Source: Thermoplasmatota archaeon
GTDB lineage: Archaea > Thermoplasmatota > E2 > DHVEG-1 > B18-G2
DNA length: 64,000 nucleotides
Direction: 5' to 3'
Assembly: GCA_029259115.1 (NCBI GenBank)
Contig: JAPDJO010000029.1
Span: 1-64,000, forward strand
The translations under genes and the position numbers were made by a program. The notes beneath the pieces were generated by a model. That model made no database searches, was not told the DNA's origin, and worked only from the letters and a program-made list of their open reading frames with translations. Shown piece after piece: positions 443-59,007 of this stretch (positions are counted from its first letter, which is position 1; each line of letters starts with the position of its first letter).

Positions 443-468
443 CCATTTTGTACAAAAATTATTTAAGC
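443..468 (+). promoter_or_regulatory. TTGTACA-type promoter element with TATA-like TTTAAG
   Basis: ccattttgtacaaaaattatttaagc; matches elements at 10810, 52180 and 58803. Confidence 0.45.
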
Positions 469-1698: not shown

Positions 1699-1821
1699 GG
1701 CCCGGGTGGTGTAGCGGTAACATAAGGGACTGTGGAGAGGGGCTTCGCCCCTTCTAACCCTGCAGAATCCGGAATCCCTTGCAGAGATCCCTTGTCCCGA
1801 GTTCAAATCTCGGCCCGGGCC
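1699..1821 (+). tRNA. tRNA-His(GTG) with 51-nt intron at 37/38
   Basis: Acceptor GCCCGGG/CCCGGGC, G-1 and C73, anticodon stem AGGGA/TCCCT, loop CTGTGG|A, T arm CCGAG-TTCAAAT-CTCGG; intron about 1736-1786. Confidence 0.9.
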
Positions 1822-10729: not shown

Positions 10730-10809
10730 CCTATCACCCACATGGAAAAATCTTCTAGATTTTTTAAGTTTTTCACAGTTAGAAATATAAAATCTGTTTT
10801 ATAATTAGG

Positions 10810-10838
10810 TAACAATTGTACAGAAAGATGTTTAAAAG
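10810..10838 (+). promoter_or_regulatory. TTGTACA-type promoter element
   Basis: taacaattgtacagaaagatgtttaaaag upstream of ORF 10860. Confidence 0.5.
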
Positions 10839-10859: not shown

Positions 10860-11006
10860 ATGAAAGTCATCGGTCTCATAACTAGTATGAAAGAAGCAAA
10901 AGAGCTTGAGTATATAGCAAAGGTTAGAATCGTAGTGAATAGAATCCATCTTCTTGCCATGATTGGAAAAGCAAGGAGCGAGAGGAGGAAAGGATTTAGT
11001 TTGTAG
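10860..11006 (+). CDS. 48-aa microprotein (CutA-N-terminus-like), paralog of 52039..52143
   Basis: MKVIGLITSMKEAKELEYIAKVRIVVNRIHLLAMIGKARSERRKGFSL*; 13/32 ungapped identities with second microprotein. Confidence 0.5.
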   Translation: MKVIGLITSMKEAKELEYIAKVRIVVNRIHLLAMIGKARSERRKGFSL

Positions 11007-46097: not shown

Positions 46098-46182
46098 GCA
46101 GGGGTAGCCAAGCCTGGTCAAAGGCGCCAGACTCAAGATCTGGTCCCGGAGGGGTTCAGGAGTTCGAATCTCCTCCCCTGCA
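46098..46182 (+). tRNA. tRNA-Leu(CAA)
   Basis: GCAGGGG/CCCCTGC acceptor, anticodon loop CTCAAGA, long variable arm, T-loop TTCGAATC, discriminator A. Confidence 0.93.
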
Positions 46183-51205: not shown

Positions 51206-51616
51206 TCAGATCAATCCTGCAGATCTCAACTTTTCAACAAGAAATTCCTTTGGCATAGCCCCTATAATCCTATCAACAAGCTCCCCATCTCTAAATAGGA
51301 GGATAGTAGGGATACTCATTATATTATATCTCATCGCTGTCTTGGGATTATTATCAACATTCAGTTTTCCAAATACAATTTTTCCTTTCAGTTCCCTAGC
51401 CAGCTCTTCGATTACTGGAGCAATCATAAGACATGGTCCGCACCAAGGCGCCCAGCAATCTATAGCTACGTTTTTGTATTTTTTAACCATCTCATCAAAA
51501 TTCACATCGCTAACCTCTATAGGTTTATCGGGCATACTTTCCAAGTTTTCACCTTCCATATACCTCTTTCTGAGTTCTTCAAGCTTCCTCCTTCTAAGCA
51601 TCTCCAGTTCGTCCAT
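51206..51616 (-). CDS. thioredoxin with N-terminal extension
   Basis: VAIDCWAPWCGPCLMIAPVIEELA; start at MDELEMLRRRKLEEL preferred because the longer ORF (to 51670) runs into the palindrome. Confidence 0.85.
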   Translation of the reverse strand: MDELEMLRRRKLEELRKRYMEGENLESMPDKPIEVSDVNFDEMVKKYKNVAIDCWAPWCGPCLMIAPVIEELARELKGKIVFGKLNVDNNPKTAMRYNIMSIPTILLFRDGELVDRIIGAMPKEFLVEKLRSAGLI

Positions 51617-51646
51617 GCAAGCCTGTAAACGATAAAGACATATATA

Positions 51647-51677
51647 AACGTTTGTGCAAATTTTATGCACAAACGTT
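51647..51677. promoter_or_regulatory. 12-bp perfect inverted repeat, candidate operator between divergent thioredoxin operon and HTH gene
   Basis: AACGTTTGTGCA-AATTTTA-TGCACAAACGTT, flanked by TTTATATA (minus) and TTATAAA (plus) TATA-like boxes. Confidence 0.75.
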
Positions 51678-51705: not shown

Positions 51706-52047
51706 ATGGATGATAATCTCTGCAGAGACATCATGAAACGGATATTAGATTTGAGAGATACAGATATCGCTGTCTACAGGGAACTTCTGAAGATTAAAAA
51801 AGCTAGAGTGAAGGATATATCAAAGATTATTGGAAGAGATAGGACGACTATTCAGAGATCTCTGAATAGACTGGTAAACGCCGGCCTTTGCTGTAAAGAA
51901 AAGAAGATTATGAAAAATGGAGGGTATTTCTATGTCTATCACTTGAAAGAATCAGAAGAAATAAAATCTATTTTGGAAAGTTGTCTAGATAACTGGTATT
52001 ATAAAATCAAGGAGAGACTTAAATTGGAAAATGAGATGTTAGTTTAA
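51706..52047 (+). CDS. winged-HTH transcriptional regulator (TrmB/MarR-like)
   Basis: DIAVYRELLKIKKARVKDISKIIGRDRTTIQRSLNRLVNAGLCCKEKK. Confidence 0.82.
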   Translation: MDDNLCRDIMKRILDLRDTDIAVYRELLKIKKARVKDISKIIGRDRTTIQRSLNRLVNAGLCCKEKKIMKNGGYFYVYHLKESEEIKSILESCLDNWYYKIKERLKLENEMLV

Positions 52048-52143
52048 CAAACTCTTTATCCTTCTTTCGACAACGAAGCTCTTTGCTACCTCTTCTATCT
52101 CCTTTGCCTGTTCAGCGGTTGAAACCAAACCGACTATGAACAT
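52039..52143 (-). CDS. 34-aa microprotein, paralog of 10860..11006
   Basis: MFIVGLVSTAEQAKEIEEVAKSFVVERRIKSLLN* with ribosome-binding site GGAGGTG and upstream TATA/TTGTACA element. Confidence 0.55.
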   Translation of the reverse strand: MFIVGLVSTAEQAKEIEEVAKSFVVERRIKSLLN

Positions 52144-52179: not shown

Positions 52180-52209
52180 TTTATAAATGAATTTTTGTAC
52201 AAATGTTAT
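52180..52209 (-). promoter_or_regulatory. TTGTACA-type promoter element
   Basis: Minus strand ataacatttgtacaaaaattcatttataaa. Confidence 0.5.
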
Positions 52210-52808
52210 CGATTGAGCTCATCCAATCTGTCAATCATTGATGTAACCAAATTTATCAACTTTTCGATACTTGTCTCATCTTCTAAAATTGTATTGACCT
52301 TTATTTCTATCTCACCATTATCAAGGGAGATGATAGGGTATAGATGTTCTGCATCGATTATCTTCTCTTGGATTCGATAATCCAGCAAATCGCGAATCAT
52401 ATCTTGATTATTTCCTTTGATTACAAATCTGCTATCAAAATAGTCAGATCCTATCTCCACCTCTTTTTCCACTCCCACTTTCTTCAAAATATCAAACATT
52501 TTCCCCTCCTTGAAAATATACATTTCAAGATCTTGAGAGAAAGTTGTAGTTGCTGACACTATGGTTTGTGAGGGAGAGTATTTGCTGCCTAAATAAAAAC
52601 GTAGGGAAACGATTCTGTTTTTGTAATTAAACTTCAAAGATGGGAGTCTAAAGGAGGGTTTTGATACCTTCCCTCCTCTTTTGATTGCTATTGATTCTAG
52701 GATTTCTATAAGTTTTCTCCTTTTTCGTGGAAAAGTAACGATGTATACAACAATACCCACTACTAAAATTACGATCCACAGCAATACTAGGATTTCTGTG
52801 TAGTCCAT
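52206..52808 (-). CDS. single-pass membrane protein of unknown function
   Basis: N-terminal TM then cytosolic domain. Confidence 0.6.
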   Translation of the reverse strand: MDYTEILVLLWIVILVVGIVVYIVTFPRKRRKLIEILESIAIKRGGKVSKPSFRLPSLKFNYKNRIVSLRFYLGSKYSPSQTIVSATTTFSQDLEMYIFKEGKMFDILKKVGVEKEVEIGSDYFDSRFVIKGNNQDMIRDLLDYRIQEKIIDAEHLYPIISLDNGEIEIKVNTILEDETSIEKLINLVTSMIDRLDELNR

Positions 52809-57432: not shown

Positions 57433-57746
57433 GGCGCCAGGAGTAGGTGGGCGGCTGACGGTGAAGGGGTATACCCTTCGCTGAGGAAAGTCCCCCCTCA
57501 CTCTGGGCCGGGGTGCCGCGCAAGCGGCAGGGACGAGAGTCCCTACAGGAGGAACAGAAACGACACAGCCAGCGGGAAAGGCGATGATGGATTTGATCCT
57601 GAGGTCCCCGCTGGATTTGGTGAAACGGCCCCTGTCCCCGGAGCAAGCCCAAGCAGCGGGATCGGCTGCCCAGACCGCCCGCGGGTAGGGCGCATAGTAG
57701 AATGCCGCCTAAAACAGAAGGGGGCTTACGGCCTACACCTGGCGCC
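57433..57746 (+). ncRNA. rnpB: archaeal RNase P RNA
   Basis: Closing helix GGCGCCAGG/CCTGGCGCC; GAGGAAAGTCCCCCC; GGGTAGGGCGCATAGTAGAATGCCGCC; ACAGAAGGGGGCTTACGGCCTACACC. Confidence 0.95.
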
Positions 57747-58646: not shown

Positions 58647-58769
58647 TTAGTTATTTATCAATTTATATATTATCTGCTTTGCCTTCATTGGATTATAACC
58701 TTTATGGATCAGGTGAATATAGACAGCATCTAAGTAAAGGTCTCTCAGACATTTTTCTCGGTTGATCAT
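58647..58769 (-). CDS. 40-aa microprotein of unknown function
   Basis: MINREKCLRDLYLDAVYIHLIHKGYNPMKAKQIIYKLINN* with SD-like GGTGGGG and TTGTACA/TATA element upstream. Confidence 0.5.
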   Translation of the reverse strand: MINREKCLRDLYLDAVYIHLIHKGYNPMKAKQIIYKLINN

Positions 58770-58802: not shown

Positions 58803-58830
58803 CCTATAAAGAGTTGTTGTACAAGTGTTA
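58803..58830 (-). promoter_or_regulatory. TTGTACA-type promoter element
   Basis: Minus strand taacacttgtacaacaactctttatagg. Confidence 0.45.
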
Positions 58831-59007
58831 TCAAAATTGATAGAAAATTATTCTGGAATTTTGTTTTAATAAATTTATAAAATATATTTATATTATGCTT
58901 TATGGGGAGAAAAAGAGATCAATTTAAACTAGAAAAAACGCCAGACTCTCCCCACTCCTCCTATTTTATATTTAGAGGAAAAATTGGAATAAAATTAGAA
59001 AGGAGGA

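Follow-up and report, generated by a model that had tools for sequence, protein, structure and literature searches.

Comparison of 53 genomes of one order of Thermoplasmata points, very strongly in our judgement, to an order-wide cis-element with a regulon centred on microproteins. The element was recognised in a stretch of 64,000 nucleotides from a Thermoplasmatota archaeon, analysed here at full length and called the window. The MBG-D order is common in marine sediments, and to our knowledge hardly any cis-regulatory code has been worked out for archaea that are not in culture. In these uncultured sediment archaea sequence alone suffices to recognise a regulon, and the whole order has conserved it. 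The regulon defines two or more microprotein families with no match in Pfam or NCBIfam and nominates one candidate regulator. The data point to a shared genetic switch that has not been described before and to two or more microprotein families that are likewise undescribed.

Read across about 100 loci, the full element is a unit of 19 bases, GRTAACAN-TTGTACAACAA, followed after 3-4 bp by a TATA-like box, in the form GRTAACAN-TTGTACAACAA-N3..4-TTTATAA. The box stands 3-4 bp from the element in 75 of the 77 promoters of microprotein family A and in 31 of the 32 promoters of the gene that we call B. Element and TATA-like box are the sole conserved parts; the flanks vary, and the distance from the element to the ATG ranges from about 50 to 73 nt, unlike the fixed spacing to the TATA box. 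A second unit, GGTAACANNTGTAMA, is present exactly 22 bp upstream in 28/77 family A and 14/32 B promoters, and none was found at control offsets in the same 77 and 32 promoters. Since 22 bp corresponds to two helical turns, both units would lie on the same side of the helix, as one expects where a protein is bound. Part of the expected position of the TFB-recognition element (BRE) is covered by the element, whose last bases fall where TFB should bind. The string TTGTACAA is just one part of the full element. It has 4 matches in the window, a number reached by 3/100 shuffles, and TTGTACA alone has 11 against 5.7 expected, reached by 7/100 shuffles; we rejected TTGTACAA as a stand-alone palindrome, as this enrichment is marginal and conservation extends over a longer unit that is not symmetric. 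Few exact matches were obtained for a concerted TTGTACC variant in genus g10, which was also set aside as anecdotal.

The window was scored with a 19-position weight matrix derived from 103 sites in other genomes, the window's own genome being left out. The features that the argument needs are the following:

443..468, forward strand: site of the earlier note, not an element copy
10808..10826, forward strand: element copy GGTAACAATTGTACAGAAA, 17.2 bits with the other-genome matrix
10831..10837, forward strand: TATA-like box TTTAAAA by sequence, 4 bp past the element
10860..11006, forward strand: microprotein of family A, 48 aa, MKVIGLITSMKEAKELEYIAK..., profile match E 1.5e-17
51706..52047, forward strand: TrmB/Lrs14-like HTH protein (TrmB E 1.2e-12, Sta1/Lrs14-like)
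52039..52143, reverse strand: microprotein of family A, 34 aa, MFIVGLVSTAEQAKEIEEVAKSFVVERRIKSLLN, profile match E 2.9e-17
52181..52187, reverse strand: TATA-like box TTTATAA by sequence, 4 bp past the element
52192..52210, reverse strand: element copy GATAACATTTGTACAAAAA, 24.6 bits
58647..58769, reverse strand: microprotein of family C, 40 aa, MINREKCLRDLYLDAVYIHLIHKGYNPMKAKQIIYKLINN, profile matches in order genomes
58804..58810, reverse strand: TATA-like box TTTATAG by sequence, 3 bp past the element
58814..58832, reverse strand: element copy GATAACACTTGTACAACAA, 29.7 bits, the window's best

The copies at 58832(-), 52210(-) and 10808(+) rank first to third in the window, the next best score anywhere in it is 2.8 bits, and the best scores of 20 Markov windows ranged from 4.0 to 14.9 bits. 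The earlier note had proposed, from the same DNA, one element shared by four loci at a nearly fixed distance from a TATA-like box. All four of the strings that it quoted are present where it placed them. Three of the loci are borne out by the matrix, with the box 3-4 bp away, and this spacing extends order-wide; the fourth, at 443(+), is not a copy of the element and drops out of both claims. It lacks the AACA half and scores at most 2 bits on the forward strand and 2.7 on the reverse, and no element was found upstream of the best homologue of the 443 locus in the sister genome G002. The window also holds an archaeal RNase P RNA gene at 57439..57740 (Rfam RF00373, 200.6 bits) and tRNA genes at 1700..1821 and 46098..46182, both of which exceed the length of the tRNA model.

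The note's further claims, that the element mostly drives microproteins and belongs to a small regulon, agree with what we found across the order, where it is conserved upstream of the same gene families and families A and C recur downstream of it. The genome-wide search for the motif near start codons that it had suggested was made with the pattern TTGTACANNAA-N3..6-TTTA in the genome to which the window belongs, 1.40 Mb in 94 contigs; it gave 8 strict matches, each of them upstream of a start codon, and the reversed control gave 1. Four of them precede family A paralogues, one the family C gene at 58769(-), one a B gene of ~120 aa and one an archaellin-like protein (Arch_flagellin E 6.4e-7); the last is the doubtful 443 site. 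Among the 60 relatives surveyed, 53 belong to the same order, and 49 of these 53 contain the pattern, with an order-wide total, summed by hand from the table, of about 233 matches against 94 for the reversed control. The 28 other genomes of the class showed no enrichment (6 matches, 15 for the reversed control). A scan of GTDB r220 returned 23 exact matches, 21 of them in Thermoplasmata/Thermoplasmatota MAGs and 20 of these 21 in front of the recurrent genes; the other two, in Methylotenera and Erwinia, look like chance matches. None was found in viral contigs, and a literature search on the exact motif returned no relevant archaeal paper. The element is specific to one order of Thermoplasmata, which is taken to be Thermoprofundales/MBG-D, an assignment with which the 21 of 23 GTDB matches agree; within Thermoprofundales, the window belongs to a family of its own.

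The genes that recur downstream, at ~100 loci, are families A, B (~117 aa) and C (~40 aa), while genes for Alba, a zinc-ribbon microprotein and an archaellin-like pilin occur sporadically, in single genomes. The Alba chromatin protein gene of G022 has a strong copy (L074 / L175), which would tie the regulon to nucleoid composition there. Family A proteins have 34-58 aa and the consensus MlIVGqVSskeEAkEItFIAKLFVVGqRARhLA. A protein profile that made no use of the motif found them in 53/53 order genomes, with 2-10 copies each, and outside the order gave one marginal match in 339 genomes of a phylum sample of 392. The element is present upstream of 45/45 family A copies picked by protein similarity alone, matching at 14-19 of its 19 positions, where shuffled upstream regions mostly match at 9-12; with motif-selected loci added, it is found at 77/77 copies. 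Family C had profile matches in 29 order genomes and in 0 of 7 others, and most of its strong members have the element upstream.

Base changes that fall mostly at third codon positions (15/21 between 52039..52143 and its G001 orthologue, 25/33 between 10860..11006 and its own) show that the microproteins are real proteins, and the element also precedes the orthologues of 10860..11006 in G001 and G003 (L048, L058). The three window ORFs that follow an element are under purifying selection or conserved at the level of the family. Families A and C have no match in Pfam or NCBIfam, and family A nothing significant among solved structures. An AlphaFold2 model of the 34-aa family A protein has an extended N-terminus and a helix at 10-33 (pLDDT 76, moderate confidence); a ribbon-helix-helix fold was rejected on this model, which shows one continuous helix. 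The main family A microprotein of genus g6 carries at its C-terminus a long acidic tail, for example EEDEEDAEEDEEEE (L118, L121, L122, L126, L129, L130, L132). The neighbour of the main family A gene differs between two sets of genera (L104-L132): in the first it is a gene for a metallo-beta-lactamase nuclease that is RNase J-like, in the second a gene resembling DNA polymerase B, both neighbours being named by eye from sequence.

The element stands upstream of 18/18 copies of B picked by protein similarity alone, and the B promoters with it number 32 in all. Orthologues of B at E < 1e-40 occur in most order genomes, and the gaps fit incomplete assemblies. B resembles TFE alpha in 10/12 members at E<=1 (best E 6.5e-5). 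This similarity to TFE (TFIIE alpha), and that to DUF6015, is weak but recurrent; however, B scores below both curated cut-offs (22.8 bits against the Pfam gathering cut-off of 27 for DUF6015, PF19479, and, for the first member, 20.2 bits against 22.9 for TFIIE alpha, PF02002), and the element is missing from the DUF6015 paralogues that these genomes carry beside B, as it is from B-like genes outside the order. The AlphaFold2 model of B is helical, of low confidence and too poor to judge a winged-helix fold; a fold search with it gave no match. A literature search on DUF6015 found no paper in the collection covered.

The best explanation overall, which we hold with moderate confidence, is that an order-specific regulator is bound at the element, with B as its likeliest identity and activation as its likelier effect. 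We propose that such a transcription regulator would bind the element GRTAACANTTGTACAACAA, which adjoins the position of the TFB-recognition element on its upstream side and partly covers it. The regulator would sit on a single unit, or on two that lie 22 bp apart on the same side of the helix, and contact with TFB or TBP would switch a small regulon made of several family A paralogues, family C and the ~117 aa B, with Alba, the zinc-ribbon microprotein and the archaellin-like pilin added in single genomes. B would bind GGTAACAGTTGTACAACAA and autoregulate its own gene, whose promoter carries the element, often doubled, and the microproteins may be effectors or feedback modulators of the circuit. 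We put B forward as the protein that reads the element only tentatively; we infer this role solely from the shared promoter element and the matching distribution, and a mere target would match equally. Rather unlikely, to our mind, is the fuller scheme of a private, TFE-derived, self-controlling regulator across the order, whose output would be multi-copy strand-helix microproteins of ~37 aa feeding back on the transcription machinery.

As to the direction of control, activation is probable on account of the upstream position of the element, and repression by occlusion is also possible, since the element overlaps the BRE position. In the latter case the element would be a repressor operator that occludes TFB/TBP, and a stress or growth signal would turn the regulon on. 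The last bases of the element do fall at the expected TFB site, and archaeal repressors that block the binding of TFB or TBP are known (PMC5512572); this reading is the less probable one. Against it, although not decisively, the element lies upstream of the TATA box, as characterised archaeal activator sites do (PMC5512572), and the tandem upstream copy better suits an activator. The 3-4 bp that separate the element from the TATA-like box, and its cover of the BRE position, would also suit an extended BRE-like core promoter read by TFB or by a special TFB paralogue, with constitutive high expression, and TFBs are numerous in some genomes of the order; two Thermoprofundales genomes show large expansions, with 25 (G041) and 16 (G025) TFIIB-repeat matches against 2-6 in most. 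We consider such a core promoter unlikely. The element far exceeds the length of a BRE, one promoter in three has a second copy 22 bp further up, and each genome has it before few gene families only; it is also present in three genomes, G003, G004 and G010, that have two TFIIB repeats, which fits one TFB (7, 3 and 9 pattern matches, respectively). A special TFB paralogue is thus unlikely, and was rejected in the absence of an extra TFB from these three.

Two further explanations fare worse than a dedicated regulator. The promoters could be alike by descent only, the genes having been duplicated together with their upstream DNA and sharing no regulator, and family A paralogues, at 2-10 per genome, could have inherited a promoter in this way. 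This is very unlikely, as unrelated proteins (A, B, C, Alba, zinc ribbon, pilin) share the element and conservation is confined to element and TATA-like box, while flanks and ATG distance vary. The earlier note had named the window's own HTH protein as a possible controlling factor. It is a predicted DNA-binding protein, and its gene adjoins, in convergent orientation, the family A microprotein gene at 52143(-), as it does beside a family A gene in other genera and families of the order (G003:C8:14816-15301, G008:C66:1293-1788), where a local HTH-microprotein partnership is possible. However, it was found in 24/53 order genomes (E <= 1e-3) and went undetected in 29/53, among them the closed genomes G016 and G022, which are rich in the element (9-10 pattern matches). 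Its own promoter region, between the thioredoxin gene (51206..51670, reverse strand) and the HTH gene (51706, forward strand), has a different sequence, a perfect 12-bp inverted repeat, AACGTTTGTGCA-N7-TGCACAAACGTT, at 51677..51647, which has no score with the element matrix and which is presumably the operator of the HTH protein itself; the note had taken AACGTTTGTGCA for a half-site related to the element, and this kinship does not hold. The repeat and the 29 genomes largely refute the HTH protein as general regulator, and we regard its control of the regulon as extremely improbable.

How do the element and its putative regulator compare with known systems? Haloferax zinc-finger microproteins of the HVO_0758 kind are tiny conserved archaeal proteins of under 70 aa (PMC10716476), like those of families A and C; they differ in that paired cysteine motifs are lacking from A and C, which, as said, have no family match. 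The few archaeal activators that have been characterised recruit TBP or TFB from sites upstream of the BRE (PMC5512572, PMC10665913). The EarA sites of the archaellum promoters of Methanococcus and Thermococcales resemble the element in being short, TACA-containing units, sometimes repeated, just upstream of BRE/TATA (PMC5512572, PMC10665913), and an archaellin-like pilin is among the targets in the window's own genus. However, EarA units have 6-8 bp (TACATA; A[CG][CG]TACA[TC]) and control one archaellum operon (PMC5512572, PMC10665913), whereas the element is a unit of ~19 bp with a 22-bp repeat in front of scattered microprotein genes; site sequence, repeat spacing and target genes thus set it apart from an EarA regulon. 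Activators of the TFB-RF1 and Ptr2 type recruit TFB/TBP from just upstream of BRE/TATA (PMC5937170, PMC5512572), and by analogy we propose that the putative regulator of the element may act by the same mechanism.
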